Shown here one piece after another: positions 8,036 to 59,941 of a stretch of 64,000 bases of DNA (the stretch's first letter is position 1; the number at the start of each line of letters is the position of its first letter). The translations under genes and the position numbers were made by a program. The DNA comes from Arenibacter sp. F20364 (GTDB lineage Bacteria > Bacteroidota > Bacteroidia > Flavobacteriales > Flavobacteriaceae): the NCBI RefSeq assembly GCF_023015905.1, contig NZ_JALKBD010000008.1, positions 1-64,000 on the forward strand, written 5' to 3'. The notes below the pieces were generated by a model. The model was given only the letters and a program-made list of their open reading frames with translations, ran no database searches and was not told where the DNA came from.

Positions 8036-8062
8036 TGGTATCCGAAAATAATAATAGAGAAG

Positions 8063-9220
8063 ATGAAAATAACCGACATAAAATCATTTCCGGTCAACAT
8101 TGCCGAAAGGAGCCAATTGAACATTAAAATAGAGACCGATGAGGGTATCTATGGTTGGGGCGCTTCCGGTCTCAGTGGCAGAGAGTTGGCTGTTATAGGT
8201 GCCATTGACCATTATCGCCCACTTCTAATAGGAAAAGACCCGTTTAAAATCGGCGCCATATGGCAGGATTTGTACCGTGGTCAGTACTTTGAAGGAGGTA
8301 GGGTATTGACTGCTGCGATTTCCGCCATCGATATTGCCCTCTATGATATTAAGGGAAAGGCATTGGGAGTTCCTGTCTATGAACTTTTGGGGGGGAAACA
8401 GCGCGACCATGTAGATTGTTTTGCTTCTTTACTTTTTCGTACTAAGGAAGAACTGATGGAAAAGGCCAGAAAACTAATTAAGGAAGAATGGAATGTGATA
8501 AGATTGGCCCCTGCCGAGTACTTAGGTAAGTCCGAATCAATATTTGAACCACGGGAATCTATCGCAATTGTTGCCGCATGGGTTACGCAACTTCGAAAGG
8601 AAATAGGATCGTCACCAACTATAGGCATAGATTACCATCACCGTCTTACGGCGGCGGAGACCGTATCATTTATAAATAGAATGCCAGTAGGAACCCTGGA
8701 TTTTATTGAAGAACCAATCAGGGATGAGACCCCTGAAGCATACGAAAGCTTGCGCAAAATGATTACTGTACCTTTTGCTATTGGGGAGGAATTTGCCAGT
8801 AAGTGGCAATTTTTGCCCTATTTGGAAAGAGGAATCACCCAATTTGCAAGAATCGATGTCTGCAATGTGGGAGGATTGACCGAGGCAATGAAAGTAGCCG
8901 CAATGGCCGAGGCCCATTATATTGATTTAATGCCTCACAACCCTATTGGGCCTATATGCACGGCGGCTTCCCTGCATCTTGCAGCGGCATCCCCTAATTT
9001 TGGTTGGATGGAAGAACTGCACACGCCAGTGGAAAACCCTGGTTTTGACAATCCGAAGTTTTACCCCCAACAACCGGTATTGGAAGGGTCGCGCTATGTT
9101 TTGCCTTCTGGCCCAGGTCTAGGGGTCGAATTCAATGAAGAACTGGCATCCAAAGAAGCTTTTAAAATTGTGGAAACGCCCCGATTAAAACGCAAAGATG
9201 GATCCTTTACTAACTGGTAA
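8063..9220 (+). CDS. Enolase-superfamily sugar-acid dehydratase, D-galactonate dehydratase type
   Basis: This is the second enolase-superfamily protein (385 residues) of the locus, but of a different subgroup from the one at 195. It has the DxH motif (D190, H192 in IDYHHR), metal ligands around E216/E217 and E242/E243, and PHNPIGPI with H292. The HNPxGP pattern is typical of D-galactonate and mannonate dehydratases. It lacks the KxK pair, having RLAP at the equivalent place. It could dehydrate D-galactonate to 2-keto-3-deoxy-D-galactonate, feeding the kinase and aldolase upstream. No galactose dehydrogenase is visible in the window to supply galactonate. Another hexonate, or a second cycloisomerase role, is possible. 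Confidence 0.72.
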   Translation: MKITDIKSFPVNIAERSQLNIKIETDEGIYGWGASGLSGRELAVIGAIDHYRPLLIGKDPFKIGAIWQDLYRGQYFEGGRVLTAAISAIDIALYDIKGKALGVPVYELLGGKQRDHVDCFASLLFRTKEELMEKARKLIKEEWNVIRLAPAEYLGKSESIFEPRESIAIVAAWVTQLRKEIGSSPTIGIDYHHRLTAAETVSFINRMPVGTLDFIEEPIRDETPEAYESLRKMITVPFAIGEEFASKWQFLPYLERGITQFARIDVCNVGGLTEAMKVAAMAEAHYIDLMPHNPIGPICTAASLHLAAASPNFGWMEELHTPVENPGFDNPKFYPQQPVLEGSRYVLPSGPGLGVEFNEELASKEAFKIVETPRLKRKDGSFTNW

Positions 9221-22917: not shown

Positions 22918-23964
22918 CTATTTATTTTGGAATAGTAAAGAACTGTCAGCAAACTTTTCGTTGACAGAGGATTCCCTTATGTTGAGTTCACCATTAAGAA
23001 TAATCGTTTCTGGCTGGTCTGGCCCTTTGTCTATAAGTTGCAATAAAAGATCCGCTGTCTTTTTTCCCATTTCAAAAGTGGGTTGTTTAACACTGCTCAG
23101 TTGGGGAGTGTTTAATTCGGCCATTTGGGTTTCGGTAAAACCCATTACCGCAATGTCTTCGGGAACGCGAAACCCCTGGCTTTTAAGTCTTTTTATGACA
23201 CCAAAGGCCACAAGGTCGTTAAAGCAGAAAAAGGCATCCGGAAGATCATTGTTATAGATGAGGTCCTCAATGATGGCAATGCCATCCTTGGCCTGCAGGC
23301 CTCCTTCTATCACCTTATAATTCGCCTTTGGAATTCTATGTTTATCCATGGCCTTCAAAAATCCCTGGATTCGATCGTTGGAAACACTTAAATTCTTGTA
23401 TCCGGAAAGATGATATATTTTTGTATACTGCTGACGGAGGAGATGTTCGGTAGCGAAGAAACTCCATTTTTTATTGTCGAAGAGTACTTTGGAGGCTGGC
23501 AGGGATTCCTCCACTCGGCCCATAAATACTATAGGGTATCCGTTTTGGTATTGTTTTAAATAAAAACTCATATTATTGCTTTCAACCGTTGGGGCAATAA
23601 TAAGACCATCGACCATATTATGGATCAGGGTTTTAACATTCGCTAATTCTTGTACGGCATCTTCGTCAGATTGCATTATCAGAACTTGATACCCGTTGGA
23701 TATGAATACTTCCTGTATTCCAATAATGATTTCTGAATAGTATTCATTAACAAATTCCGGCACTACAATACCAATGTTGAAGGTTTTCTTTTGGCTGAGT
23801 TTTTGGGCAATGGGATTAGGATGATAGCCCATTTCCTCCGCGGTTTTTAAAATGAGTTCCTTGGTCTCCTTTTTGATGTCATACTTGTCATTGAACGCTC
23901 TGGAAACAGAGGAAATGGAAACATTTAATCTCTTGGCGACGTCTTTAATCGTGGTGTGTTTCAT
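22918..23964 (-). CDS. LacI-family transcriptional regulator
   Basis: This is a 348-residue regulator with an N-terminal LacI helix-turn-helix (TTIKDVAKRLNVSISSVSRAFN, about residues 3-24) and hinge region (to about 60, ending NPIAQKLSQKK). A periplasmic-binding-protein-like sensor domain follows (about 62-335, starting NIGIVVPEF). It is divergent from the susC at 24263, with 298 bp between them. That spacer holds two palindromes of the LacI/GalR type with the central ACGTT expected for this family. It is the likely regulator of PUL 2 and of itself, responding to a sugar or sugar acid from the substrate. Ligand and sign of regulation are unknown. Confidence 0.9.
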   Translation of the reverse strand: MKHTTIKDVAKRLNVSISSVSRAFNDKYDIKKETKELILKTAEEMGYHPNPIAQKLSQKKTFNIGIVVPEFVNEYYSEIIIGIQEVFISNGYQVLIMQSDEDAVQELANVKTLIHNMVDGLIIAPTVESNNMSFYLKQYQNGYPIVFMGRVEESLPASKVLFDNKKWSFFATEHLLRQQYTKIYHLSGYKNLSVSNDRIQGFLKAMDKHRIPKANYKVIEGGLQAKDGIAIIEDLIYNNDLPDAFFCFNDLVAFGVIKRLKSQGFRVPEDIAVMGFTETQMAELNTPQLSSVKQPTFEMGKKTADLLLQLIDKGPDQPETIILNGELNIRESSVNEKFADSSLLFQNK

Positions 23965-24262: not shown

Positions 24263-27200
24263 ATGAAAAGACTCAAACTTTTAATGATGATTTTTCTGAG
24301 CTGTGGCAGCCTGCTATGGGCTCAGGAGAAAACGGTAAGCGGATCGGTGACCGATTCGCAGAATGTACCCCTTCCAGGCGTAAACGTTGTGGAAGTTGGG
24401 ACCACCAACGGAACCCAAACCGATTTTGACGGAAATTATTCCCTTAGTGTAAATGCGGGGTCTTCCCTTCAGTTTTCCTATATAGGTATGGTATCCCAGA
24501 CCATTGTGATAGCAGGGAAGTCCACAATTAATTTGCAGATGGAAGAAGATGCTTCCCAATTGGATGAAGTCGTAGTGGTTGGGTATGGTACCCAAAAGGC
24601 GGTAAATCTTACGGGTTCTGTAGAAACGGTAAAGGCAGAGGAAATTGCCAGACAACCAGTAGCACAGGCTTCACAGGCCTTGGCCGGTCTGGTACCCGGA
24701 CTTACGGCAACACAATCCAGTGGACAGCCCGGTGAAGACGGTGCGGCCATACGTATACGAGGGATTGGAACCCTTGGTAGCGGGGCAAAGAATAATCCAC
24801 TAATTTTGGTTGACGGAATTCCGGATGATATCAATGGACTTGACCCCAGTGATATAGAATCGATTTCTGTTTTGAAGGATGCCTCGGCATCCGCCATTTA
24901 TGGTTCCAGAGCCGCGAATGGGGTTATTCTGATAACGACCAAGAGGGGTAAGGAAGGCAAACTGTCTACCAGCTTTAACTCTTATGTTGGTGTTCAGAGT
25001 ATTGCCCAAAACCTCAAATTTTTGGATGCTCTGGGTTATATGGAAGCGTTTAATTCTGCAGAACCAGGGGCATTCTCTGAGGAAACTCTCCAAGCGTACA
25101 GAGACGGTAACGGAGTGGGTACTGAAGCTTTGCCCGATACCGATTGGGTAGATCTACTGTTTTCCTCTGCAGCCATACAGCAGTATCATAGTCTGTCCGT
25201 ACGTGGCGGCTCAGAAAAACTGAAAGCGGCTACTTCAATTTCTTTTACGGATCAGGATGGAAACGTTCCGAACTTTAATTTTAAGCGATATAATGGCCGA
25301 TTTAATTTGGATTACAATCTAAGTGAGAAGTTAGATCTGGCCTTCGATTTAAATTTTAGAAGGGAACTGAAAAGTCAGCCAGCCGGATTAAATCTCCTGA
25401 CTAGGTCCGCATATCGTTTACAGCCCTTATTCATTGCGATTAACGACGATGGTACATATGGGTCCGGTTTTAACGGAAGTAATCCGGTAGCCCTGGCCAA
25501 CTCCACGGCCTTGGACCAAACTACGAACAATTATGTTAGGGCATTGGTGAAAGCCACCTATAGGCCTTTCAATAATTTTTCTATTTCTGCTACTTATGCT
25601 CCTCAGTATTTGGATGTTGATCAAGACGATTATAGGGCAAAATATACGTATTATGACGGATCCGGAGCTCCTCCACAGGTAACAGTGGGGGAAGGTTCTT
25701 CAGAAAGTTCAGTGTATAAGGAAACATTTACTTCCTTTCAGGACAACTTTAATGCTGTTGCCAATTGGGATAAGGACTTTGGAGACCATAGTTTGTCATT
25801 ATTGGCGGGATACGAATTCCTAAAGTTTAAGTCCGAGGTTTGGTCGGCCAGTAGACGGGGATTTGTGCTGGATGAATACAGAGGGTTGGACAATGGTCTT
25901 CCAGATACCCAATTAAATTCCGGAAGTTCCACATTAAATGGACTGGAATCATTATTTGGGAGGTTCAACTATGCCTACAAAAACAAATACTTATTGGAAG
26001 CAAACGTAAGGAAAGATGCTTCATCACGTTTTGCCAAAGGGTATAGATCAGCAACCTTTCCATCATTTTCACTGGGATGGGTAGTGTCCGAAGAAGGTTT
26101 TTTGAGCAATAGTGAAACTCTTAATTTCTTGAAATTTAGGGCTTCTTGGGGGCAATTGGGAAATCAATTTATTTCCTCAGGAAATAACTTTCCATATACC
26201 TCACTATTTGGCTTAGGAAATGCAAATGCCACTATTGGTGGTGTACCTGTAGTTGGCGGGGCCCAATTGGTGCTGGCCAATTCCCAATTAAGATGGGAAA
26301 CCGGAGAGACACAAAACATTGGTGTAGATGCCAAGTTTTTTGGGAGTAAATTATCGTTTACCGGAGAATATTATGTGCGTAAGACAAAAGATATATTATT
26401 AGGGGTTACTATCCCAACCTCTGTAGGTTTGGAGGCTCCGGTGCAAAATGCCGGGGAGGTATGGAATACTGGTTATGACCTCTCGTTAGGATGGAACGAT
26501 AACATTGGAGAGAATTTTAGATATGGATTTAACTTTAATTATTCTGATTTTGACAATGAAATCAAAAATTTAGGAGGTTTAAGCCAGTTGCCTCTCGGGA
26601 ATACTATTAATCGTGTTGGTAGTGAAATTGGAGCTATTTATGGTTTAAAGGTAGAGGGATTATATCAGGAAAGTGATTTTGATACCAATGGAAATTTGAA
26701 TTCAGGATTACCGGTGCCCGGATTTGGGGCTATACAGGCAGGTGATATTAAATATGCCGACGTTTCTGGACCTGACGGGGTTCCGGATGGGCAACTTACC
26801 AATGACGACCGTATGATAATAGGAAGTGATATTGCCAATAAAAACTGGGGCTTGGAACTTTTTGCCGAATATAAAGGGATCGATTTTTCAGTATCCTTTT
26901 TAGGTTCCGGAGGCAGGGATCTGGTACTTGAGGGAGATGCAGGATGGGCCTTTTACAATGCCGGGAAAATTCAAGAATGGCAGGCAGACTATTGGACGCC
27001 CACCAACACCACAGCTGCTTATCCCAGGTTGCACCCGTCCAGTGCACACCCTAATTGGCGTGTAAATGAAACTTGGATGCATGATGCTTCCTATACGCGT
27101 TTGAGAAATGTAACCCTAGGTTACCAATTGCCCAGAAACCTTGTGGACAGTATAAATATTACTAACGCAAGAGTCTATATATCCGGTCAGAATTTGGCCA

Positions 27201-27310
27201 CTTGGGACAATATGCCGGAGGGTATTGATCCCCTGACCCCACAGTTTTCTACTGGAGCTTTCTATCCAGTTACCAAAATATTTACCATGGGTCTAAATGT
27301 TACTTTCTAA
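24263..27310 (+). CDS. SusC-family TonB-dependent oligosaccharide transporter (PUL 2)
   Basis: This is a 1015-residue SusC with signal peptide (1-20, ending LLWAQ), carboxypeptidase-like domain (about 22-95), DEVVVVGYG TonB-box region, plug with SVLKDASASAIYGSRAANG, and a barrel ending MGLNVTF. No STN domain is present, in keeping with control by the LacI regulator next door. It is the first gene of PUL 2, and its stop overlaps the extended susD reading frame. It imports the still unidentified PUL 2 glycan; the enzymes downstream suggest a sulfated, anhydro-sugar-containing galactan. Confidence 0.93.
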   Translation: MKRLKLLMMIFLSCGSLLWAQEKTVSGSVTDSQNVPLPGVNVVEVGTTNGTQTDFDGNYSLSVNAGSSLQFSYIGMVSQTIVIAGKSTINLQMEEDASQLDEVVVVGYGTQKAVNLTGSVETVKAEEIARQPVAQASQALAGLVPGLTATQSSGQPGEDGAAIRIRGIGTLGSGAKNNPLILVDGIPDDINGLDPSDIESISVLKDASASAIYGSRAANGVILITTKRGKEGKLSTSFNSYVGVQSIAQNLKFLDALGYMEAFNSAEPGAFSEETLQAYRDGNGVGTEALPDTDWVDLLFSSAAIQQYHSLSVRGGSEKLKAATSISFTDQDGNVPNFNFKRYNGRFNLDYNLSEKLDLAFDLNFRRELKSQPAGLNLLTRSAYRLQPLFIAINDDGTYGSGFNGSNPVALANSTALDQTTNNYVRALVKATYRPFNNFSISATYAPQYLDVDQDDYRAKYTYYDGSGAPPQVTVGEGSSESSVYKETFTSFQDNFNAVANWDKDFGDHSLSLLAGYEFLKFKSEVWSASRRGFVLDEYRGLDNGLPDTQLNSGSSTLNGLESLFGRFNYAYKNKYLLEANVRKDASSRFAKGYRSATFPSFSLGWVVSEEGFLSNSETLNFLKFRASWGQLGNQFISSGNNFPYTSLFGLGNANATIGGVPVVGGAQLVLANSQLRWETGETQNIGVDAKFFGSKLSFTGEYYVRKTKDILLGVTIPTSVGLEAPVQNAGEVWNTGYDLSLGWNDNIGENFRYGFNFNYSDFDNEIKNLGGLSQLPLGNTINRVGSEIGAIYGLKVEGLYQESDFDTNGNLNSGLPVPGFGAIQAGDIKYADVSGPDGVPDGQLTNDDRMIIGSDIANKNWGLELFAEYKGIDFSVSFLGSGGRDLVLEGDAGWAFYNAGKIQEWQADYWTPTNTTAAYPRLHPSSAHPNWRVNETWMHDASYTRLRNVTLGYQLPRNLVDSINITNARVYISGQNLATWDNMPEGIDPLTPQFSTGAFYPVTKIFTMGLNVTF

Positions 27311-27329
27311 TTCTATAATTTATTATAAA

Positions 27330-29141
27330 ATGAAAAATATAAAATATATAATCGCATTTAGCATCGGTTTCCTCTTTCTTGGAGCCTGTGAAGATACTGT
27401 TTTGAACCTGGAAGATCCGGGTAGTCCAACGGACGCCACCTTCTTTAGAACCGAGGCGCAATTGGAGGTGGCCCTAACGGGAATTTATGAAAGTTTGAAC
27501 TATGTGGGAAGTGTGCCGTTTCCCCAAATGCTGGACCACACTACTGATTATGCCTTCAACAGGGGTAATGTAGATGGAACGGTACCGGCCACGACTGGTG
27601 GGTTGACCTCCACAGAGGGTATTGTCAACCGATTTTGGAATAACTTTTATACGGGTATCCAAAGGGCCAATAACCTTTTGACTAATATGAACAGGGCTCA
27701 AGAGGTAACAGAACCAAGTCGTTTTGAAGAGATTAAGGCAGAAGCCCTCTTTCTAAGGGCAATTTTCTATAGTTATCTGACCGAACTTTACGGGGATGTA
27801 CCCTTTAGGACAGAGGTTACCTCCTTGGAAGAGCTGGAAATAATTGCCAGAACTCCTAAGGCGGATATTGTTGCAAATATTATTCAGGATTTGGAGGAAG
27901 CGGCCAGTATTTTGCCTTTGACACAGACCGGCAACGCACGTGGAAGGGCTTCCGCAAATGCAGCAAATGCATTGATAGCGCGTATCGCGCTTTACAACAA
28001 CCAATTTGCTCTGGCCGAAAGCGCAGCCTTGAAGGTGATGCAATCGGATGAAAAACCGAGCTTATTTCCCAATTATGAAACTTTGTTTTCCGATGAGGGA
28101 GTGGGTTCTTCCGAAGTACTCTTGGATATGTCCTATACCACAGGAACTAAAACCCATGGATTGTCACAAAGGCAAGGCAGTAGGTTTGGTGGCTGGTGTC
28201 AATTGGTGCCCGCGCAACAAACCGTGGATAGTTACGAGACGATCAACGGGCTGCCTATTGATGAAGACCCCGATTATGATCCGGCCAATCCATTTGAAAA
28301 TAGAGATCCAAGACTGGCGGCCTCAATAGCATTGCCCAATAACGTATGGACAGGACACATTATACAACAGCACAGCGATAGTATTGCTACCTGGCGAGTA
28401 GAGAATGGAGTGAAGATAGAAAGGGTTTTTAATCCGAACGCTGCCAATCCAGGCGGCCGGAAAGTAGTGGATCCTTATGACGGTACCGAATATGTTGCCG
28501 GAGGGGCCAATAGATTTACCTCTTTTACCGGGTATTTTTGGAAAAAATTCTCTGATGCCCCTACTTTGCTAGGTGCACTTTCTGGGGGCCCCAGTCCGCT
28601 TAATTCTGAGGAGACCATTTATTTAATTCGTTATGCCGAAGTGTTATTGAATTATGCGGAAGCAAAAATAGAGGCAGGAACCATAGATGCCACTGTATTG
28701 GATGCAATCAATGAGGTTAGACAAAGAGCCTACAACAATAGTGGAATCACCTATCCGGCGGTAACGACCACGGATCAGGCCGAGCTTAGAAAAATAATTA
28801 GAAGGGAGCGCAAAGTGGAACTTGCCGATGAAGGATTGAGATTATTCGACATTAGGAGATGGGGCATAGCCGATAAGCTGATGAATACGACCCTTCTAGG
28901 TGGTCCGGCCAATGGATTCAGTAAAATTGGAGGGGAACTTGGATTTGTACCCGATATTGATGAAGATGGCTTTATTTCTTATGATGGAGCACCTACCATG
29001 CCCAGGGTAGAGTTGGGTAATTTGGATTTTAGGGAAGTGGAAGTAAGGACGTTTGACGCTGGGAAGCATTATTTATGGCCTATTCCCCAGGCCGAAGTTG
29101 ATGCCACTGGTGGAGTAGTAACCCAAAATCCCGGATATTAA
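27330..29141 (+). CDS. SusD-family glycan-binding lipoprotein (PUL 2)
   Basis: This is a surface lipoprotein of about 603 residues. Starting at the ATG at 27330 gives a normal signal with lipobox LGAC (cysteine about residue 20). An earlier in-frame ATG at 27297 lies within the end of susC and adds eleven residues before the signal, so it is less likely. The SusD hallmarks are EALFLRAIFYSYLTELYGDVP and, near the C-terminus, RRERKVELADEGLRLFDIRRW. It pairs with the SusC just upstream. A strong hairpin follows 45 bp after its stop. Confidence 0.92.
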   Translation: MKNIKYIIAFSIGFLFLGACEDTVLNLEDPGSPTDATFFRTEAQLEVALTGIYESLNYVGSVPFPQMLDHTTDYAFNRGNVDGTVPATTGGLTSTEGIVNRFWNNFYTGIQRANNLLTNMNRAQEVTEPSRFEEIKAEALFLRAIFYSYLTELYGDVPFRTEVTSLEELEIIARTPKADIVANIIQDLEEAASILPLTQTGNARGRASANAANALIARIALYNNQFALAESAALKVMQSDEKPSLFPNYETLFSDEGVGSSEVLLDMSYTTGTKTHGLSQRQGSRFGGWCQLVPAQQTVDSYETINGLPIDEDPDYDPANPFENRDPRLAASIALPNNVWTGHIIQQHSDSIATWRVENGVKIERVFNPNAANPGGRKVVDPYDGTEYVAGGANRFTSFTGYFWKKFSDAPTLLGALSGGPSPLNSEETIYLIRYAEVLLNYAEAKIEAGTIDATVLDAINEVRQRAYNNSGITYPAVTTTDQAELRKIIRRERKVELADEGLRLFDIRRWGIADKLMNTTLLGGPANGFSKIGGELGFVPDIDEDGFISYDGAPTMPRVELGNLDFREVEVRTFDAGKHYLWPIPQAEVDATGGVVTQNPGY

Positions 29142-29256: not shown

Positions 29257-31059
29257 ATGACGCATTCCCATAAAATATTGTTGGTACTTGGCTTATTTTT
29301 TTGCATTGCTTCCATCAAGTCGCAAAACTTATTGGTTGAGGCCGAAAGCTTTGAAAACCCTGGTGGGTGGGTCGTGGACCCACAATTTGTTGAACAGATG
29401 GGCTCGCCATACCTCATGGCCCATGGAATGGGAGAGAAGGTAAAGAATGCCACTACCAAGGTGAGTTTTGATAAAGCGGGACAATACCATACCTGGGTGC
29501 GTACCATGAATTGGGCGCCCGGCGATTGGGAGGCGCCCGGCAAGTTTAGGTTGAAGGTGGCCAATGAAGTGTTGGAAAAAACCTTGGGGCGGCGTTCTGG
29601 TTGGGGATGGGAATATGTTGGCCTGGCCAACATAGATAAAGCAAAAAAAGTCCCTCTGGAACTAATAGACCTCACCGGTTTTAATGGTAGATGTGACGCT
29701 ATTTATTTTTCGACCACTAAGGAGGAGCCTCCCACTTCCCCTAAAAAATTGGCGGAGTGGAGAAAAACGGTTAAGTCGGAAACCAATGGCCCTGAAGAAA
29801 CCAAAACCTATGACCTGGTTGTCGTTGGTGGTGGTATTGCAGGCTGTGCCGCTTCCATAGCAGCAGCAGAACAAGGGCTAAAGGTGGCCCTTATTCATGA
29901 TCGGCCCCTTTTGGGAGGTAATGCCAGTAGTGAGATCAGAGTACATACAGAGGGAATCTATGGAAATTTTGAGAGGATTTTGAAAATGTTGGATACTGAG
30001 CATTACCCCAATGGGCATGTTGATGCTGAAATAGATCAAGAAAAAAGGGACAATAATGTAAAGAGTTATGATAATATCGATTTGTTTCTGAACTGGAGAG
30101 CCTATGATGCCAAGGCGGAGAACAATATCATTAAGTACGTCGATGCCCGCCAAACGGCTACGGGCGAAAGAAAGAGGTTTACCGCACCCTATTTTGTGGA
30201 TTCTACAGGTGACGGCTGGATCGGATTTTGGTCAGGAGCGGAATTTTCCTATGGTCGCGAGAGTGCTGATACCTATGGTGAGACTTGGGAAGAACATGGG
30301 GAGCTGTGGAGTCCAAAAGTACCGGACAATGCCGTTATGGGATCATCCGTTCTTTGGGGTTCCAAAGAAATGGAGTCGCCACAGGAATTTCCCGAGGTGC
30401 CTTGGGCCATGCCGGTTGCAAAAGACTATTCAAAAGTAAAAGGGGAGTGGCAATGGGAATTTAGTAGAAACGACCTTAGCCAAATAGAGGATGCCGAAGA
30501 GATTAGGGACCATATGTTAAGGGCCATATACGGATCCTTTAGCAATGCCAAAAAAGAACCGGAAAATGTAAATCGTAAATTGGAATGGGTTTCTTATTTG
30601 GTAGGTAAGAGGGAGTCTAGAAGGCTTGTAGGTGATCACATCTTTACCTTTAAGGATGCAGTGAACGAAATTAAATTTCCCGATGCCGTAGTGGTTGAAA
30701 AAAGGGCTATAGATGTGCATTATCAAACCATCTTGGAAGATGAAAGGAATCCGGATTTTATTTCAGAAGCTTTGTTTTACAGGGGTATTCAATATTATAT
30801 TCCTTATAGAAGCCTTTATTCCAAAAACATAAATAATCTGTTTATGGCAGGTCGGAATTTTAGTTGTTCCCATATAGGTCTGGGCGGTCCAAGGGTAATG
30901 AGGACCACAGGGCAAATGGGGGCCGCAGTTGGCTTTGCCGCTTCACTTTGTAAAAAGTATGACGTAAATCCTAGGGATATTTATAAAGGATATCTACCAG
31001 AGTATTTGGAGCTGATAGAAGAACAGAAATATAGAAAAATTCCAGAATCCAAAAAATGA
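29257..31059 (+). CDS. Secreted FAD-dependent oxidoreductase with N-terminal beta-sandwich domain
   Basis: This is a 600-residue protein with a signal peptide (about 1-23, ending IKSQ). Residues about 25-155 form a carbohydrate-module-like beta-sandwich (VEAESFENPGGW and DAIYFST), followed by an FAD-dependent oxidoreductase domain of the PF12831 type. The dinucleotide motif is VVVGGGIAGCAAS (G191-G193, G196), then LLGGNASSEIR, GKRESRRLVGD, and a C-terminal NLFMAGRNFSCSHIGLGG. Such proteins are often misnamed xanthan lyase. Its stop overlaps the next start in ATGA, so translation is probably coupled to the SGAT-motif protein at 31056. It may oxidise a sugar or glycoside outside the cytoplasm and pass electrons to that partner. 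The reaction is not established. Confidence 0.8.
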   Translation: MTHSHKILLVLGLFFCIASIKSQNLLVEAESFENPGGWVVDPQFVEQMGSPYLMAHGMGEKVKNATTKVSFDKAGQYHTWVRTMNWAPGDWEAPGKFRLKVANEVLEKTLGRRSGWGWEYVGLANIDKAKKVPLELIDLTGFNGRCDAIYFSTTKEEPPTSPKKLAEWRKTVKSETNGPEETKTYDLVVVGGGIAGCAASIAAAEQGLKVALIHDRPLLGGNASSEIRVHTEGIYGNFERILKMLDTEHYPNGHVDAEIDQEKRDNNVKSYDNIDLFLNWRAYDAKAENNIIKYVDARQTATGERKRFTAPYFVDSTGDGWIGFWSGAEFSYGRESADTYGETWEEHGELWSPKVPDNAVMGSSVLWGSKEMESPQEFPEVPWAMPVAKDYSKVKGEWQWEFSRNDLSQIEDAEEIRDHMLRAIYGSFSNAKKEPENVNRKLEWVSYLVGKRESRRLVGDHIFTFKDAVNEIKFPDAVVVEKRAIDVHYQTILEDERNPDFISEALFYRGIQYYIPYRSLYSKNINNLFMAGRNFSCSHIGLGGPRVMRTTGQMGAAVGFAASLCKKYDVNPRDIYKGYLPEYLELIEEQKYRKIPESKK

Positions 31060-32174
31060 AGCTTGTAAAGGCATTCCTTTTCATGTTGGTTGTTTGTTTG
31101 GGGCGTGCCCAGTTCCCATTGCCCGTTCCTACCTTGAACGGGGTGCAGGAGGGTATTATGGACAGGCCTCCCGAATTTTATACAATGGGTTGGGAAAAAG
31201 GCCTCCAATTGGTAGCACGGGAAACAGGAATGTTCATAGAAGTAGATTCCATAGGCCAACAGGATATAGCACTTTTGGAAGACCGGGAACAGCAGCCAGT
31301 GTTGTATACCTCCGAAATTGAAACTCCCGTCTGTGCCGATGGGGAATGCAAGCTAATGCACATAAGGTTGTATTGGACTTTGTTGGGAGATTATGCCGGT
31401 TTTGACCGATATCCGCAACAACCGCTTACAAAACATGATCATGATGAATTTGTACAGGCAGATTATTTAAAATTACATCAGTTGCTTTTGGATGACAAAT
31501 CGATCTTTAGACAAAGAAAAATTGATGAATTGGTAAAGAAACCCAGCCCTTCCGATCACGGGGATGTTGATGCGTTGTCCGGGGCAACGATTGCCGAAGT
31601 GAAGGAGAGCGTTGTTTCGGGAGCACTTTACTCATGTTATGTGGCATGGCATCTGGTTCACGGAGAAATATCCGGGAAACTCAAGGAACATACACTGGCC
31701 CTTTTGGACAAGGAGCTGATTTTAAGGATGCTACAAAACGACGACCCAGATTATCAGATGTTCGCCCTGGAAAAACTAGATAAAGTGGAGTACCTGGGTC
31801 ATCTTGAGAGGTTGGCGGGTATTTTTAAATCCAGTATTCCTCTGGTGCGGGGCTATATCATTAAAAACTTACCAGAGGAATTTTGGAGAGACCCTGCTGT
31901 CCAGGTTCCTTTTTGGGATGCTTTTTCAACAATAGATATCAACAGTAGATCCTTAATGCTGGAGCATCTGGAGGAGGCTCCCAAATCCAGTATAGTAGAT
32001 ATTTCCATTAAATTGGGAAGTATGACCAAAAATCAATTACGGGCATTTTTGGACTTTTTGGCTGAAAGGAATAATGAAGGTGAAATAATTGAAAACCTGA
32101 AGGTTTTTGCCAATAGGGATAATGAAGTATATGCCTATTTGGTGTTACAATTTTTAGAGGGTTATAAACAATAA
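31056..32174 (+). CDS. Secreted protein with covalent-FMN (SGAT) motif and helical repeats, possible electron acceptor
   Basis: This is a 372-residue exported protein (signal peptide about 1-18). The middle contains DALSGAT (D172-T178), which matches the D-x-x-S/T-G-A-T sequence used by ApbE-type transferases to attach FMN to Thr, as in RnfG/NqrC and FMN_bind proteins. Ahead of it are a cysteine pair (C93, C98) and a conserved-looking LYWTLLGDYAGF. Residues about 205-370 are helical, HEAT-like. It overlaps the FAD oxidoreductase gene by four bases (ATGA). I infer a flavinylated redox partner of that enzyme. No ApbE gene is in the window. The motif is seen; flavinylation is a prediction. Confidence 0.6.
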   Translation: MKLVKAFLFMLVVCLGRAQFPLPVPTLNGVQEGIMDRPPEFYTMGWEKGLQLVARETGMFIEVDSIGQQDIALLEDREQQPVLYTSEIETPVCADGECKLMHIRLYWTLLGDYAGFDRYPQQPLTKHDHDEFVQADYLKLHQLLLDDKSIFRQRKIDELVKKPSPSDHGDVDALSGATIAEVKESVVSGALYSCYVAWHLVHGEISGKLKEHTLALLDKELILRMLQNDDPDYQMFALEKLDKVEYLGHLERLAGIFKSSIPLVRGYIIKNLPEEFWRDPAVQVPFWDAFSTIDINSRSLMLEHLEEAPKSSIVDISIKLGSMTKNQLRAFLDFLAERNNEGEIIENLKVFANRDNEVYAYLVLQFLEGYKQ

Positions 32175-32207
32175 GTTGTTGCATTTGCGACATCTAAAAA
32201 ATAACGA

Positions 32208-33875
32208 ATGAGTAAGATAGATATTGGGGTAATTATAGTTTTCACCCTGCTTGTTTTTATTTGTGGGTTAAGCTTTTCCAAATCCGGAAAGAACATGAAA
32301 TCCTTTTTTGCAGCAGGGGGTGCCCTGCCTTGGTGGATGAGTGGTCTGTCTTTGTTTATGAGCTTTTTCTCTGCCGGTACTTTCGTGGTCTGGGGATCCA
32401 TTGCATATAGCAGTGGATGGGTGGCCATTACCATCCAGTCTACCATGTGTATAGCCGGACTTATTATTGGCTTTTTTATTGCCCCAAAATGGCAGAAGAC
32501 CAAGGCCCTGACTGCAGCAGAATTTATAACGGATCGTTTGGGGTATGGTACCCAAAAAATATATACTTATTTGTTTCTTCTTATTTCATTGTTTACCACC
32601 GGAGCCTTCTTGTACCCCGTGGCAAAAATTGTTGAAGTATCTACCGGTATTCCTATTGGGACCAGTGTAATAGTCCTAGGCGTGCTAATCCTAATTTACA
32701 CGGCCGTTGGTGGTTTATGGGCGGTGATTGTAACTGACGTGCTGCAATTTGTGGTTCTCACAGCAGCCGTATTGATCGTGGTTCCCCTTTCCTTCGACAA
32801 GATAGGGGGAATGGATAATTTTGTTTCCCAAGCTCCTGAAAACTTCTTTGCGCTTGTTAATGAAGAGTATTCCTGGGGGTTTATGATTGCTTTCGGACTC
32901 TACAATCTCTTTTTTATTGCAGGCAACTGGGCATATGTGCAACGCTATACGAGTGTGGCCACGCCCAAGGATGCAAAAAAGGTAGGGTGGCTCTTTGGCG
33001 CGTTATATTTGATAAGTCCATTGGTCTGGATGTTACCACCCATGATTTATCGGGTGCTAAATCCGGAATTGGATGGTCTGGCAGATGAAGGGGCTTATCT
33101 GCTGATGTGCAAGGAAGTGTTGCCTGTGGGGATGTTGGGACTCATGTTGGGCGGAATGGTATTTGCCACTTCCAGTTCGGTGAATACTACCCTAAATATA
33201 TCGGCAGGGGTACTGGCCAATGATGTCTACAAACATTTTCGTCCAAACACCTCAGGGGATCATTTGGTCAAGGTTGGGCGTTGGTCTACTATAGCACTGG
33301 GTGTTATTACTATTATCGTTGCCCTATTGGTTCCTTATATGGGTGGGATTGTTGAGGTGGTAATGAGTGTGGCCGCCATTACCGGTGGAGCTATGTTTTT
33401 GCCCCCTATGTGGGCCTTGTTCTCCAAGTATCAGACCGGAAAAAGTGTATTGGCCATTACGATAGTTTCACTGTTAATCAATTCGTTCTTCAAATTTGTG
33501 TCCCCTAGTCTTTTGGGTTTTTCCTTGGACAGGGCCCAAGAAATGTGGCTTGGAGTAGGGGTTCCTGTTGTGATGCTATTTTTTTTCGAGCTCTACGCCA
33601 GGACTAAGAATGCTGGGTTTTCACAGTACACGGATTACCAAGTATTAGTTGCGAAAAAGGCCTCGGAACCAATTGAGGAAACAGGAGAAGGCAATAAACG
33701 GGGCGCAAAGGTCATCGGTATCGGTGTGGGCTCCACAGGGATTTTATTATTGATCCTGTCCTATATCGGAAAAACCGGTACTGCCCTTGTGGCCGGCATG
33801 GGGGTTTTGGTGGTATTATTAGGGACCTTCATAATTTACAGGAATTCAAAGAGTAAAAAAATACATAAGTCATAA
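32208..33875 (+). CDS. Sodium/solute symporter (SSS family)
   Basis: This is a 555-residue inner-membrane protein with about 13-14 hydrophobic helices. It starts at once with helix 1 and carries SSS features such as FFAAGGALPWWMSGLSLFMSFFSAGTF and a GGLWAVIVTDVLQF segment. It imports a sugar, sugar acid or similar solute with Na+. It is placed between the extracytoplasmic redox pair and a cytosolic-looking FAD oxidoreductase. It probably carries the product of periplasmic processing, perhaps an oxidised sugar, inward. Substrate is not readable from sequence. Confidence 0.88.
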   Translation: MSKIDIGVIIVFTLLVFICGLSFSKSGKNMKSFFAAGGALPWWMSGLSLFMSFFSAGTFVVWGSIAYSSGWVAITIQSTMCIAGLIIGFFIAPKWQKTKALTAAEFITDRLGYGTQKIYTYLFLLISLFTTGAFLYPVAKIVEVSTGIPIGTSVIVLGVLILIYTAVGGLWAVIVTDVLQFVVLTAAVLIVVPLSFDKIGGMDNFVSQAPENFFALVNEEYSWGFMIAFGLYNLFFIAGNWAYVQRYTSVATPKDAKKVGWLFGALYLISPLVWMLPPMIYRVLNPELDGLADEGAYLLMCKEVLPVGMLGLMLGGMVFATSSSVNTTLNISAGVLANDVYKHFRPNTSGDHLVKVGRWSTIALGVITIIVALLVPYMGGIVEVVMSVAAITGGAMFLPPMWALFSKYQTGKSVLAITIVSLLINSFFKFVSPSLLGFSLDRAQEMWLGVGVPVVMLFFFELYARTKNAGFSQYTDYQVLVAKKASEPIEETGEGNKRGAKVIGIGVGSTGILLLILSYIGKTGTALVAGMGVLVVLLGTFIIYRNSKSKKIHKS

Positions 33876-33922
33876 AAATAAATGGGTTAATACTCAAAAT
33901 CCAAAAAATACAGTTATACAAT

Positions 33923-36211
33923 ATGATATTAGAAAATTACAGTTCTGATAAAAGGGCAACTAAACTAGTAGCTCTAAATAGCAACCTAGTAGTGGTGGGC
34001 GGAGGCCTATCCGGTGTTTGCACGGCTATTACAGCGGCTCGTGCAGGGCTCAAAGTAGTGCTGTTGCAGGATAGACCGGTGTTAGGAGGTAATGCTTCAT
34101 CGGAGGTGCGACTCTGGAGTTTGGGGGCTACTTCCCATATGGGCAACAATAACCGCTGGAGTCGCGAAGGTGGATTGATCAATGAGATTTTATTGGAGAA
34201 TTTAAAGCGAAATAAAGAGGGAAACCCCTTAATTTTTGATACCGTCTTGCTCGAAAAGGTTTATGAGGAAAAGAATATTACCCTATTGTTGAACACCGCT
34301 GTCTATGAAGTGGAAAAAGGCGATGATAAAAAAATAAAAAGCGTTACCGGCTTTTGTAGTCAGAATTCCACCACCTACACAGCTACAGCACCCTTATTTT
34401 GTGATGCCTCCGGTGATGGAATCGTGGCCTTTATGTCTGGAGCCTCTTTTCGTATGGGTGCAGAAAGTAAAGAGGAATTTGATGAAGGATTTGCTCCTAA
34501 TTTAGAGGACTACGGGAATTTACTGGGCCACTCCCTTTATTTTTATACAAAGGATTTGGGCAGGCCGGTGTCATACACTGCCCCGTCGTTTGCCATAAAA
34601 AATGCCGAGGAATTACCCAGAATAAAAAATTATCAATTGGGAGACCATGGATGTAAATTATGGTGGGTAGAACACGGAGGTCGCCTCGATACCATACATC
34701 AATCCGAGGATATAAAATTTGAATTATGGAAGGTGGTCTATGGAATTTGGGATTATGTAAAGAACAGTGGTAGATATCCTGAGGCGGCCAATCTTACCTT
34801 GGAATGGGTGGGTACCATTCCCGGTAAGCGTGAAAGCAGGCGCTTTGAAGGTGATTATATGTTGGCCCAAAAAGACATTGTAGAACAAAGGGATCATTAT
34901 GATGCCGTGGCCTTTGGAGGCTGGGCAATGGATCTGCACCCGGCAGATGGTATATATAGCAAGCATAATTCGTGTACACAATGGCATGGCAAGGGGGTGT
35001 ATTCCATTCCCTATCGGTGTTATTATTCAAAAGATCTGGATAACCTTTTTCTTGCAGGCAGAATTATAAGTGCCAGTCACGTGGCTTTCGGGTCTTCAAG
35101 AGTGATGTTGACCTGCGCCCATGGAGCGCAGGCCGTGGGCAAGGCGGCGTCTATTTGTCTTGAACAAAATTGTTTGCCACGGGACTTATCAACAAAAGAG
35201 AAGATAAAGGAACTTCAACTGGCCTTGAATAGGGATGGTCAAAGCATACCCCGATTGGAGATCCCGGACAATGAAGATCTGGCGCAACAAGCAGTTGTTA
35301 GTACGAGTTCCACTTTTCAATTTAAGGGGTTTAATCCTGGAAATGATTGGCAGACACTTACGTTTGGAACTGCACAATTGTTGCCTTTAAAAGCCAATGA
35401 GTATTATAGTTTTGAATTTGAGGTGGAAGCGGAGGAAGGGACAAGCGTGGAAGTACAATTGAAAAGCAGTATTGCCCACACCCATTTTACTCCTGATTAT
35501 GTTGTTGATAGTCAAATATTTCAAATAAAAAAAGGAAAACAAAAGCTTGTATTCCAGACCACAAAGGTACAAAAAACCAAACACTACGCTTACTGTTGTA
35601 TCATGAAGAACGAAAAGGTGAAAGTAAGGCTTTCAGACGAACGTGTTACGGGGCTAATGACGGCACAGAACAAGGTGAATAAGGCAGTGTCAAATTATGG
35701 TAGACAAGATCCCCCAGCCGATATCGCCGTTGATAGTTTCGAATTTTGGACCCCGGAGAGAAGACCTGCCGGAAAGAATTTGGCATTGACACTAGATAGA
35801 CCAATTGCGGCCTTTGGGGCGGACAATTTGTTGAATGGTCAGCTTAGGCCCGAATCACATGGAAAAACCAATGCCTGGGTGGCAGCAATGGACGATGAAA
35901 CTCCAGAAGTAAAACTAAAATGGGAAACCCCTGTAGATCTAAAGACCATAAAGCTATTTTTCGATTCCGATTTTGATCACGCTTTGGAAACTACCCTCAT
36001 GGGCCACCCGGAAGAGGTTATACCTTTCGTGGTAGCCGATTATAGGATAAAAGACGGATCAGGTAATATTCTTAAGGAAGTTACAGGAAATTATCAGGCT
36101 ATAAATACCATTGAATTGGAAAAAGTAACAAGAACGGATTCACTGACTTTTGAGTTTGCCAAGAAGGAGGAAAACATACCGGTATCCTTGTTTAAAATTT
36201 CGGTTTATTAA
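33923..36211 (+). CDS. FAD-dependent oxidoreductase without signal peptide, C-terminal beta domain
   Basis: This 762-residue protein is related to the one at 29257 but arranged differently. The FAD motif VVVGGGLSGVC (G26-G28, G31) is close to the N-terminus, with no signal peptide, followed by LGGNASSEVRLW, GKRESRRFEGD, and NLFLAGRIISASHVAFGSSRVM. Residues about 445-762 are an added beta-sandwich region of unknown role. It is probably cytoplasmic. Next to the Na+ symporter, it may act on the imported sugar. An N-terminal signal lost through a wrong start is unlikely, because the Rossmann strand begins at residue 22. Confidence 0.75.
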   Translation: MILENYSSDKRATKLVALNSNLVVVGGGLSGVCTAITAARAGLKVVLLQDRPVLGGNASSEVRLWSLGATSHMGNNNRWSREGGLINEILLENLKRNKEGNPLIFDTVLLEKVYEEKNITLLLNTAVYEVEKGDDKKIKSVTGFCSQNSTTYTATAPLFCDASGDGIVAFMSGASFRMGAESKEEFDEGFAPNLEDYGNLLGHSLYFYTKDLGRPVSYTAPSFAIKNAEELPRIKNYQLGDHGCKLWWVEHGGRLDTIHQSEDIKFELWKVVYGIWDYVKNSGRYPEAANLTLEWVGTIPGKRESRRFEGDYMLAQKDIVEQRDHYDAVAFGGWAMDLHPADGIYSKHNSCTQWHGKGVYSIPYRCYYSKDLDNLFLAGRIISASHVAFGSSRVMLTCAHGAQAVGKAASICLEQNCLPRDLSTKEKIKELQLALNRDGQSIPRLEIPDNEDLAQQAVVSTSSTFQFKGFNPGNDWQTLTFGTAQLLPLKANEYYSFEFEVEAEEGTSVEVQLKSSIAHTHFTPDYVVDSQIFQIKKGKQKLVFQTTKVQKTKHYAYCCIMKNEKVKVRLSDERVTGLMTAQNKVNKAVSNYGRQDPPADIAVDSFEFWTPERRPAGKNLALTLDRPIAAFGADNLLNGQLRPESHGKTNAWVAAMDDETPEVKLKWETPVDLKTIKLFFDSDFDHALETTLMGHPEEVIPFVVADYRIKDGSGNILKEVTGNYQAINTIELEKVTRTDSLTFEFAKKEENIPVSLFKISVY

Positions 36212-51409: not shown

Positions 51410-52555
51410 ATGAAACATACTTCCTGTTGCCCATTGTTTTTTATGCTGCTATTAATAACCATAGGGTGTAAAAACCAGCCTAAGAATACCGGTTCGGAGG
51501 GTCAACAACCAGTTCAAAAAGACGGCCTTAAACTCCTTGTAGGTACTTTTGCCGAGGGAGAGGAACAGGGCATCTATCAGGTCGACTTTAATACTGAAAC
51601 GGGAGAGCTGACCAATAGGCAACATGTGGTCAAAGAGAACAAGCCTGGATATTTATATCTCTCCAAAGACGGGGAAAGGGTCTATTCTTCAAACGGAACC
51701 AAGCCAGGGAGTGTTTCGGCATTCCAATGGAACGAAGATAAATCGGCCTTGGAGAGAGTGGCCAACCGGCCCAGTATAGGGGATGGCGCCTGTTATATTG
51801 CGTTGAACTCCAATGAAAACCTCCTTGCCGCTGCCAATTATGCCTCTGGCGGTATAGTCTTATATCCCGTAAACGAAAAGGGAGCTGTTTTGGATGCCCC
51901 ACAGGCGATACAACACACTGGCAATGGGCCTCATCCCAACCAAAACTCCGCACACGCCCACTGCGTAAAATTTTCGGATAATGGTGAATTTTTGTACGCT
52001 ATAGATTTGGGTATAGATCAGATTTTGACGTATCCAATTGATTCTGAAAATAAATTGGGCAAAGCCGAGGTGGGTCTACAATTGGATCCCGGCGACGGTC
52101 CAAGACATCTTATTTTCCATCCGTCAAAGAATATGGCATTTGTAATCAACGAACTTTCCAGTACGGTAGTTTCTGCCACCATAGACCCCGCTACTGGACA
52201 ATTTCAGCGGATTGATAAGCTAAGTACGCTTCCTACTGATTATGATGGAAAAAATGCCTGTGCGGACATTCATTTAAGTCCCAACGGAAAATTTCTCTAT
52301 GCCTCCAATAGGGGTCACAATAGTTTAGCTATTTATTCTGTTTCTGACAGTGGGCATCTCAAACTTGTGACAATTGAATCTGTTCAGGGAGATTGGCCGC
52401 GGAATTTCACTTTATCTCCAGACGGGAAATTTTTATTGGTGGCCAATCAAAAATCCAACAATATTACCGTGTTTAAAGTCGATCAACAAACTGGGCTTCT
52501 AGAGTTTACAGGAACTGAAATAAGCATTTCACAACCCGTGTGTTTAAAGTTTTAG
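51410..52555 (+). CDS. Lactonase, seven-bladed propeller (6-phosphogluconolactonase-like) lipoprotein
   Basis: This is a 381-residue lipoprotein (cysteine C20 in IGCKN) of the PF10282 lactonase family. The repeated blades include LLVGTFAEGEEQGIYQ, GPHPNQNSAHAHC, GDGPRHLIFHPS and YASNRGHNSLAIY, matching the family pattern. Cytosolic relatives open 6-phosphogluconolactone; this one is exported, so its substrate is an outside lactone. In the same operon as a secreted FAD oxidoreductase, it may open a sugar lactone made by that enzyme before uptake. Lactonase family is firm; the pathway is inference. Confidence 0.82.
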   Translation: MKHTSCCPLFFMLLLITIGCKNQPKNTGSEGQQPVQKDGLKLLVGTFAEGEEQGIYQVDFNTETGELTNRQHVVKENKPGYLYLSKDGERVYSSNGTKPGSVSAFQWNEDKSALERVANRPSIGDGACYIALNSNENLLAAANYASGGIVLYPVNEKGAVLDAPQAIQHTGNGPHPNQNSAHAHCVKFSDNGEFLYAIDLGIDQILTYPIDSENKLGKAEVGLQLDPGDGPRHLIFHPSKNMAFVINELSSTVVSATIDPATGQFQRIDKLSTLPTDYDGKNACADIHLSPNGKFLYASNRGHNSLAIYSVSDSGHLKLVTIESVQGDWPRNFTLSPDGKFLLVANQKSNNITVFKVDQQTGLLEFTGTEISISQPVCLKF

Positions 52556-52911: not shown

Positions 52912-53517
52912 ATGGAGAAAGAGCTTATAAGTTCGGCCGATTTTCGCTTCCTTCAATTTAAGGAAGGTGATCGCCGTGCTTTTGAGTATTATTTTAAGGA
53001 ATACTACAATAGTATCGTTGGGTTTAGTATTCAATTTATAGGCGATCAGGATAAAGCTAGAAGTGTGGCTCAAGATGCCTTCATTAAACTTTGGGAGAAC
53101 AGGAAAAAAGTTCAAAAAACCAATGGAATTCAAGCCTTTTTGTACCGCTCGGTGAAAACTGATTGTTTAAATCTACTTAGACACAATAAGGTAGTACGCA
53201 AATATAAATCCAGGAAATTGCAGGAAAGGGAAAGCAATTTGCATGCTGAAATTTTGAATTCCATGAATTTTGATTCCGTTACCTTTTCGGAATTGGAAAG
53301 TCTTATTGAAAAATCAATAGCGGAATTACCGGACAAATGCAAACAGGTATTTGTAAAAAAGCGTTTTGAAAATAAGAAGAATAGAGAGATTGCCGAGGAA
53401 CTTGGTATTACTATTAAAGCGGTAGAGGCCAATATTACAAGAGCTACGAAATTCCTTAAATTACGACTTGTAAACTACGTTATCACTATTTTGATTTATA
53501 CTTTTTTGCGGTTTTAA
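52912..53517 (+). CDS. ECF-type RNA polymerase sigma factor (Bacteroidota expansion family)
   Basis: This is a 201-residue sigma factor. Region 2 is at about 18-85 (FKEYYNSIVGFSIQFIGDQDKARSV, then AFIKLWENR). Region 4 is at about 125-185 and carries the HTH NREIAEELGITIKAVEANI. A C-terminal hydrophobic stretch (LVNYVITILIYTFLRF) is a little unusual. A FecR-type anti-sigma gene follows 74 bp later, then an STN-domain SusC, the usual signal chain that turns on a PUL when its glycan binds outside. It probably drives the susC promoter at about 54730-54866. Confidence 0.92.
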   Translation: MEKELISSADFRFLQFKEGDRRAFEYYFKEYYNSIVGFSIQFIGDQDKARSVAQDAFIKLWENRKKVQKTNGIQAFLYRSVKTDCLNLLRHNKVVRKYKSRKLQERESNLHAEILNSMNFDSVTFSELESLIEKSIAELPDKCKQVFVKKRFENKKNREIAEELGITIKAVEANITRATKFLKLRLVNYVITILIYTFLRF

Positions 53518-53591
53518 CAAAAAAAATCAAAAATCAATGTAGGGTAAAGTACTTCTAAGGTGTACTTAATTGGAACACAAAATTCCAGTTA

Positions 53592-54725
53592 ATGGATCAT
53601 CAGTTAATTTCAAAGTATCTTTTAGGAAATGCCACAGAAGAGGAAGTAGAACGAATCTTCCAATGGATAGATGATTCTCCCGAGAATAAAAGAGTCTTTA
53701 TTCAATTTAAAAAGGCCTGGGCTTTGGGCGCCAAAAGTGATGAAGATGGCGAGAAAGCTTGGCGGGAATTGGACTCAAAACTGGGTGATAACAAGGGGAA
53801 GTCCGGGTTTACAGGACTTATAATGTATGCCGCTATCTTCGTACTTCTTGTTGGTACAGGGTATTTCTTTACACTTCAAAAATCAAATTCCAATCTACCG
53901 GTAATTGATAAAAACGCCATTACCTTGCAATTGGGCAACGGAAATATTCAGGTGATAACCGAGGATGGTGAACGTACCTTTTTGGACAAAAAAGGAAAAC
54001 TGGTAGGAAAACAGAAAGGAAATGTTTTGAATTATAAGAGTGTAGCAAGTGACCTTACTACATTGTCACTTATTTATAATGAATTGACCATACCCTACGG
54101 GAAAACTTTTCAGTTAGTGTTGTCGGACGGCACCACAATTCATCTTAACTCCGGTAGTTCCATAAAATATCCCGTAAAATTTATTGAAGGAACAAAGAGG
54201 GAAGTTTTCCTTAAGGGTGAGGCCTTTTTTGACGTTACTAAAGATCCGAACAATCCTTTTGTAGTTAATGTAAATGACTTAAACGTCAGGGTTCTGGGAA
54301 CTAAATTCAATGTTTCTTCATATCCTGAGGAGGAGAATATCAATACTGTGCTGGTTGAAGGGTCTGTTGCACTACATGGAAAAAATAAGGAGTTCAATTC
54401 TTCCAATACGGTTTTATTGGAGCCGGGAGAGAAAGGCGAATGGAACCAGGAATCTGAAAAAACATCCGTAACCAATGTGGATACAAAAATGTATACAAGT
54501 TGGGTGGAAGGAAGAATGGTCTTTAGGAACACCCCCTTTAAGATCATCAGAAAAAAATTGGAAAGGCACTATAATGTCTCCATTAAAAACAATAATGAAA
54601 TATTGGAAGACAAGACTTATAACGCGGTATTCGATGTAGAAAGCATAGAACAGGTATTGCAAACCTTAAACGAAATTTATTCCATTGAATACAAAATTGA
54701 TCAAAATGAAATAATCATCAACTAA
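53592..54725 (+). CDS. FecR-family anti-sigma factor
   Basis: This is a 377-residue inner-membrane protein. The N-terminal cytoplasmic part (1-70; EEVERIFQWIDDSPEN) would hold the sigma factor. One transmembrane helix (about 73-95) follows, then a periplasmic FecR domain (about 165-260, with LSDGTTIHLNSGSSIKYP and GEAFFDV). Last is a C-terminal DUF4974-type domain (about 300-377), which contacts the STN domain of the partner SusC. It releases the sigma factor when the transporter signals. Order sigma, anti-sigma, susC is the standard one. Confidence 0.93.
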   Translation: MDHQLISKYLLGNATEEEVERIFQWIDDSPENKRVFIQFKKAWALGAKSDEDGEKAWRELDSKLGDNKGKSGFTGLIMYAAIFVLLVGTGYFFTLQKSNSNLPVIDKNAITLQLGNGNIQVITEDGERTFLDKKGKLVGKQKGNVLNYKSVASDLTTLSLIYNELTIPYGKTFQLVLSDGTTIHLNSGSSIKYPVKFIEGTKREVFLKGEAFFDVTKDPNNPFVVNVNDLNVRVLGTKFNVSSYPEEENINTVLVEGSVALHGKNKEFNSSNTVLLEPGEKGEWNQESEKTSVTNVDTKMYTSWVEGRMVFRNTPFKIIRKKLERHYNVSIKNNNEILEDKTYNAVFDVESIEQVLQTLNEIYSIEYKIDQNEIIIN

Positions 54726-54788
54726 TCTTAACACCACTAAATATGAACTGAAACTTTCAAAACTAGGACAAACTCGACTAAAAAAAAA

Positions 54789-54815
54789 CCAGAAAATGCT
54801 TGCGACATTTTCTGG
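54789..54815. promoter_or_regulatory. Perfect 10-bp stem-loop before PUL 3 susC
   Basis: CCAGAAAATG (54789-54798) and CATTTTCTGG (54806-54815) form a perfect stem with a CTTGCGA loop. A run of A precedes it, so only on the - strand would it look like a terminator. On the + strand it lies in the leader between the anti-sigma gene and susC. It may block antisense reading or stabilise the susC leader. Confidence 0.6.
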
Positions 54816-54866
54816 CAAATTAAAGTGATTAAAATTTTTATTAACCACCAAACGTATTACTAAATT

Positions 54867-58253: not shown

Positions 58254-58257
58254 GATC

Positions 58258-59928: not shown

Positions 59929-59941
59929 TCATTTTCGTAAA

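Follow-up and report, generated by a model that had tools for sequence, protein, structure and literature searches.

A four-gene block behind susC and susD

The window analysed here is a stretch of 64,000 nucleotides from Arenibacter sp. F20364 (contig NZ_JALKBD010000008.1, positions 1 to 64,000), and the system in question is a quartet of genes that follows a SusC/SusD pair on the + strand and encodes, in this order, an exported oxidoreductase dependent on flavin adenine dinucleotide (FAD), called FADox1, a protein named after its SGAT motif (the SGAT protein), a sodium:solute symporter (SSF) and a second FAD-dependent oxidoreductase (FADox2). Open reading frames (ORFs) were called mechanically, the first residue always being written M, and the export signals of FADox1, the SGAT protein and FADox2 were judged by eye. 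The features at the centre of the analysis are the following:

24263-27310, + strand: SusC-like TonB-dependent transporter, 5' of the quartet
27297-29141, + strand: SusD-like lipoprotein
29257-31059, + strand: FADox1, exported FAD-dependent oxidoreductase, 600 aa, PF12831, export signal by eye
31056-32174, + strand: SGAT protein, 372 aa, export signal or N-terminal anchor by eye
31056-31059, + strand: ATGA overlap of the FADox1 stop and the SGAT gene start
31569-31589, + strand: codons of DALSGAT (residues 172-178), predicted flavinylation motif for ApbE
32208-33875, + strand: SSF sodium:solute symporter, PF00474, E 3.9e-37
33923-36211, + strand: FADox2, 762 aa, PF12831, no export signal by eye

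An earlier note on this DNA had placed a four-gene block with two FAD oxidoreductases and a Na+ symporter directly behind susC/susD, and the block is indeed found there, on one strand. Against a curated Pfam cut-off of 27 bits, PF12831 matches FADox1 with 214.9 bits (E 3.2e-63, residues 186-576) and FADox2, which is probably cytosolic, with 310.5 bits (E 3e-92). FADox1 carries in addition a conserved N-terminal domain (approximately residues 24-165) to which no Pfam name applies, and its FAD motif (residues 186-222) also matches PF00890.

Conservation of the FADox1-SGAT pair

Homologues of the SGAT protein are encoded in 22 of 149 genomes of relatives, at 25 loci in the species collection, and in 10 of 395 genomes from each of the phylum and class samples (the own genome being counted in these genome counts, and the phylum and class samples overlapping); two phylum matches (L068, L069) and one class match (G605) cover the C-terminal, HEAT-like part only and were left uncounted. 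Upstream DNA is present in 24 of the 25 species-collection loci, and a FADox1 homologue directly precedes the SGAT gene in all 24, with an overlap of exactly four bases in 23 of them, while in ten short loci from the same genus the two genes lie 42 to 73 bases apart. Fifty-five SGAT genes from 52 loci (the shortest, L088, of 4.7 kb) were compared, neighbours being labelled by phmmer similarity to reference proteins instead of Pfam searches gene by gene. A same-strand oxidoreductase of the FADox1 type is the direct neighbour of 52 of these genes and lies within two genes of 53, the two exceptions standing at a contig end (L054) and in a locus with a short, partnerless homologue (L084, 7840-8706). 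This count excludes thirty loci of roughly 4 kb (L005-L034), which by their coordinates are mostly the same places as longer loci; the five among them with no longer counterpart (L016, L018, L019, L028, L029) all have the oxidoreductase neighbour. Among another five loci, of which two lie on Cytophagales plasmids, the oxidoreductase is the direct neighbour in three (L152, L154, L156), lies within two genes in one (L153) and is missing from one (L155, 9734-11044), whose SGAT homologue (a 436 aa ORF of uncertain start) overlaps with the beginning of an oppositely oriented DUF6607 gene.

The two proteins also appear to have diverged together. Distances among SGAT proteins track those among their partners (Spearman 0.81 over 54 pairs, reached in 0 of 2000 permutations, and 0.56 within a clade of 33 pairs, values that kinship inflates), and divergent SGAT proteins accompany divergent partners, many of which bear twin-arginine-type signals by eye. 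Within the same clade, FADox1 has a mean identity of 77%, against 51% for the SGAT protein. The suggestion, based originally on the four-base overlap, that the first two proteins work together has thus gained from the retention of that overlap, the conserved neighbourhood and the correlated distances, and FADox1 and the SGAT protein very probably form a functional pair. No description of this pair was found among the matches listed in the literature searched, as far as the available parts of those sources go.

A predicted covalent flavin carrier

What the SGAT protein does is less directly read from family databases. It is predicted to consist of an FMN_bind-like domain (about residues 36-205) and a HEAT-like C-terminal domain (217-372), with Thr178 as the predicted site of flavinylation, that is, of the attachment of flavin mononucleotide (FMN). 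Over 64 homologues, the flavinylation position is Thr in 63 and Ser in one, so that the hydroxyl is never lost; Gly176 and Ala177 are each kept in 61, and the first position of the motif is Ser in 37, Ala in 21 and Thr in 6. When the N-terminal domain was predicted separately, because a structure search with the whole model had returned mainly helical-repeat proteins and none of significance, the FMN subunits of Rnf and NQR stood at the top of the VIA-align ranking (126-145 of 180 residues, with modest scores); Foldseek gave nothing significant for this domain, the first Rnf subunit (9eri_G) ranking 17th with E 1.7.

Weighing against a flavin-bearing SGAT protein is the outcome of the family searches: at E up to 0.1, no Pfam or NCBIfam family was matched, including PF04205 (FMN_bind), which was again missing when eight divergent homologues were searched at E up to 1. 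Nor did the sequences of solved structures yield a match at E up to 1, and in hhalign the motif was the sole similarity to an FMN_bind profile, which had been built from 20 sequences out of 30 loci, the ten lacking a motif-bearing central long ORF having been dropped, and which is therefore biased towards the motif. With no match to the FMN_bind family, the assignment of FMN to this protein rests on the motif, the predicted fold and the gene context, and the protein is not filed as a member of PF04205. The only annotated member of the family that was encountered (WP_144077121.1) is named hypothetical, and the closest named relative found is from Arenibacter palladensis (89%).

Could the protein, then, be no flavoprotein at all? 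In that case Asp-x-x-x-Gly-Ala-Thr would be a structural element, and the protein a HEAT-repeat partner that serves FADox1 in assembly or as a chaperone, which would fit the missing FMN_bind match, the HEAT-like C-terminal half and the modest structural scores. This is very unlikely, given that covalent-FMN subunits lead the structural list, that the hydroxyl is kept in every one of the homologues compared and that apbE directly adjoins the pair in two relatives (L075 and L077). ApbE, for which the earlier note had proposed a genome search, is present in four copies in the own genome; it occurs in all of 30 SGAT-bearing genomes examined, but also in six of six SGAT-free ones. Within Arenibacter, 12 of 12 genomes with the SGAT protein have four apbE genes and six of six without it have two or three, a difference confounded by kinship. 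Of the claim of a flavin-bearing protein, the near-invariant motif and, at modest scores, a predicted fold like that of covalent-FMN subunits have stood, and a Pfam FMN_bind match has not. Covalent FMN is accordingly predicted here with good confidence, and the protein would represent a family beyond the reach of the standard FMN_bind model.

The comparison with RnfG and NqrC (FMN_bind, PF04205) runs both ways. The SGAT protein resembles them in its predicted fold and in a flavinylation-type motif followed by a helix, but it has no sequence match to them beyond the motif, ends in a HEAT-like domain and contains a Cys-x4-Cys hairpin that is conserved. Next to its gene, neither Rnf nor Nqr genes were noticed. 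Weak matches to HEAT_2, below the cut-off, are found in two of its homologues.

Proposed electron transfer and the associated carriers

Taken together, PF12831 membership, the pairing, the near-invariant motif, the FMN_bind-like predicted fold (of modest score), the HEAT-like C-terminus and ApbE make it moderately likely that FADox1 and the SGAT protein together constitute one dehydrogenase acting outside the cytoplasm, whose electrons would go to the respiratory chain and whose product would be imported. From these data we infer FMN attachment, electron flow and its direction, the substrate, the acceptor, and what the HEAT-like part and the carriers do. Exported FADox1 would oxidise a carbohydrate alcohol or aldose freed during glycan breakdown, its FAD being reduced in the process; the SGAT protein, a putative diverged carrier akin to the Rnf/NQR FMN subunits, to which ApbE would attach FMN at Thr178, would accept these electrons and relay them towards the respiratory chain, with the HEAT-like domain possibly offering a docking platform. 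Import of the oxidised product would then fall to a carrier encoded in an adjacent gene, SSF in this locus and CstA in many relatives. A membrane electron acceptor was searched for by eye in gene lists with many unannotated ORFs, Pfam having been run on a minority of neighbours.

As to the carriers, the idea of the quartet as one unit across polysaccharide utilization loci (PULs) did not survive the survey: of the 52 loci, many of which end too early to show them (L059, for instance, stops after SSF), nine have SSF and a second oxidoreductase in addition to the pair, against 19 of 55 SGAT genes with CstA no more than two genes downstream, directly adjacent in 17 cases. Oxidoreductase-SGAT-CstA is the commoner block. 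That the glycan is oxidised and its product handled by FADox2, as had been proposed, is not established. One cluster (L082, G089:C54) combines three oxidoreductases of the PF12831 type with a single SGAT protein, SSF, CstA and sulfatases, and in two others (L146 12643-16053, L037 12534-15941) large FG-GAP and UnbV_ASPIC proteins stand behind the oxidoreductase-SGAT-CstA block.

The frequency of CstA gives some room to a substrate other than a carbohydrate, such as a lactyl or pyruvyl substituent, lactate, glycolate or another small acid or alcohol, with CstA importing the product. The CstA of L146 resembles the pyruvate/proton symporter CstA model, if far under its cut-off (89.3 bits against 1188), that of L072 belongs to PF02554, and four of seven Arenibacter loci have the pair next to CstA and outside a SusCD locus. 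A substrate of this kind is improbable, since FADox1 would hardly need its conserved additional N-terminal domain for a small acid and the locus in the window carries SSF in place of CstA.

Electrons might also flow in the opposite sense, the FMN carrier feeding respiratory electrons to FADox1, which would reduce an extracytoplasmic substrate. The extracytosolic fumarate, urocanate and methacrylate reductases named in the part of Meheust 2021 (PMC8238504) considered are reductases served by FMN domains, and the FAD motif of FADox1 matches PF00890, the family of those enzymes. Over its full length, FADox1 is nevertheless a PF12831 protein, the setting is catabolic (SusCD, glycoside hydrolases (GHs), sulfatases) with a carrier adjoining, and in Zobellia a neighbouring protein carries a cytochrome c domain; these bacteria presumably respire oxygen. 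Reversed flow is thus unlikely, and oxidation by FADox1 is the probable direction, favoured by the catabolic setting, the adjacent carriers and the cytochrome protein. The latter, a DUF7133-HEAT-cytochrome c protein, lies with a following GH2 upstream of FADox1 in two Zobellia loci (L050, 2744-5005; L059, 2755-5016), and proteins of similar size occupy these positions in two other loci (L051, L052). Its fusion of cytochrome c to HEAT suggestively parallels that of the flavin domain to a HEAT-like one in the SGAT protein.

Substrate, wider locus and significance

That the substrate of FADox1 is a carbohydrate is fairly likely. The locus in the window is, by its gene content, a carrageenan PUL, since genes for the release and catabolism of anhydrogalactose (GH127, DagB, dau) stand together with SusCD and sulfatases. 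It also encodes an aldehyde dehydrogenase, a KDGal kinase and an aldolase, besides GH127 and several sulfatases; dauA, dauC and dauD were assigned from Pfam family and gene order, and the best match of DauB in the PDB, 5olc, is itself DauB according to the part of PMC5698469 considered. Further features of the window are:

195-1328, + strand: DauB, 3,6-anhydro-D-galactonate cycloisomerase, best PDB match 5olc
4457-6544, + strand: DagB-like 3,6-anhydro-D-galactosidase, best PDB match 5opq
6719-8035, + strand: MFS carrier, scoring 374.1 bits with the D-galactonate transporter model (cut-off 395)
8063-9220, + strand: enolase-superfamily dehydratase, scoring 278.8 bits with the galactonate dehydratase model (cut-off 311)
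22918-23964, - strand: LacI-type regulator
51410-52555, + strand: lactonase-type beta-propeller, PF10282, lipoprotein-like signal by eye, not flagged by the lipobox pattern

A third SusCD pair (within 52912-62467) is preceded by genes for an ECF sigma factor and FecR and followed by one for a PhoD-like protein that bears a twin-arginine-type signal.

Two observations bear on the question of a glycan substrate. Co-occurrence was assessed over 149 genomes (identity of at least 74% for the FADox1 orthologue, 77% for dauB and 69% for galactonate dehydratase), and 10 of the 16 genomes with a FADox1 orthologue have no such dauB, so that a carrageenan-specific pair was rejected and the substrate is probably not anhydrogalactose alone; conversely, six of six genomes with dauB have FADox1. 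Moreover, in five of seven Arenibacter loci (L144, L147, L149, L150, L151) the pair lies outside a SusCD locus and adjoins a GFO/IDH/MocA-type protein, four of the five also having CstA; SusCD is present in the other two (L146, L148). The own genome holds a second SGAT-oxidoreductase pair, with a GFO/IDH/MocA protein and CstA (L072, G000:C181:80000-99900), apparently at the chromosomal place that holds the FADox1 pair in other Arenibacter.

The MFS carrier and the galactonate-dehydratase-like enzyme (6719-9220), together with the lactonase (51410-52555), suggest that a second route, of De Ley-Doudoroff type, is open to galactose, the carrier and the dehydratase both scoring slightly under their NCBIfam cut-offs. 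A tight link between FADox1 and galactonate dehydratase was not found: five genomes have both, 11 FADox1 alone and five the dehydratase alone (Fisher p 0.0014, with the caveat of relatedness among the genomes), which neither proves nor excludes a galactonate route. FADox1 is, by context alone, a candidate galactose dehydrogenase, and its turning galactose into galactonate in this PUL is a tentative idea. Galactose would become galactonolactone in the periplasm through the module, the lipoprotein lactonase would open the ring, the galactonate-type MFS carrier would import galactonate, and the dehydratase at 8063 would feed the kinase and aldolase of the anhydrogalactose pathway. If true, both carrageenan sugars would meet in one pathway. 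Equally speculative is the broader proposal of an unrecognised respiratory module of marine Bacteroidota, made of an exported PF12831 flavoenzyme and an FMN_bind-HEAT carrier, often with CstA, which would oxidise sugars before import and, in this locus, serve the route from galactose through galactonolactone to galactonate.

How do these proteins compare with known systems? Periplasmic FAD sugar dehydrogenases, such as glucoside 3-dehydrogenase and FAD-glucose dehydrogenase, are GMC-family enzymes with c-type haem carriers. They share with FADox1-SGAT an exported FAD enzyme and a separate electron-transfer subunit, but here a PF12831 enzyme and a predicted flavin carrier take the place of GMC and haem; no CXXCH haem motif occurs among the window ORFs listed. 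The flavinylated extracytosolic oxidoreductase systems, in the portions of PMC8238504 and PMC11334425 (mSystems 2024) considered, likewise combine an exported FAD enzyme with a covalent-FMN carrier (predicted in our case), although the fumarate-reductase-like enzymes of PMC8238504 belong to PF00890 and FADox1 to PF12831. The main text of PMC8238504 does not contain the terms FAD_oxidored, PF12831, polysaccharide, carbohydrate, sugar, HEAT or CstA, nor that of PMC11334425 polysaccharide, carbohydrate or sugar. With carrageenan catabolism in Zobellia galactanivorans, an organism for which deletion mutants exist (Ficko-Blean 2017, PMC5698469), the window shares dau/dag genes, GH127, S1 sulfatases and SusCD; in the available portion of PMC5698469, galactose is expected to be channelled into the Leloir pathway and no secreted flavin dehydrogenase or pair is named, while the legend of its Fig. 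9 gives the oxidoreductase classes AA3, FR/SR and OXR in carrageenan loci, with location unstated. An FAD-dependent oxidoreductase is mentioned near a SusC/D pair of Maribacter in the available text of PMC11345257, and that of PMC9296495 holds nothing on the pair.

The FADox1-SGAT pair would bring an oxidative, energy-yielding extracytoplasmic step into a pathway described in terms of hydrolysis and desulfation. It would also assign a class of function to a protein family whose one annotated member encountered is called hypothetical. Covalent flavin carriers would in turn extend to a domain that escapes the Pfam FMN_bind model, for which reason surveys based on FMN_bind only would have left the SGAT proteins uncounted.

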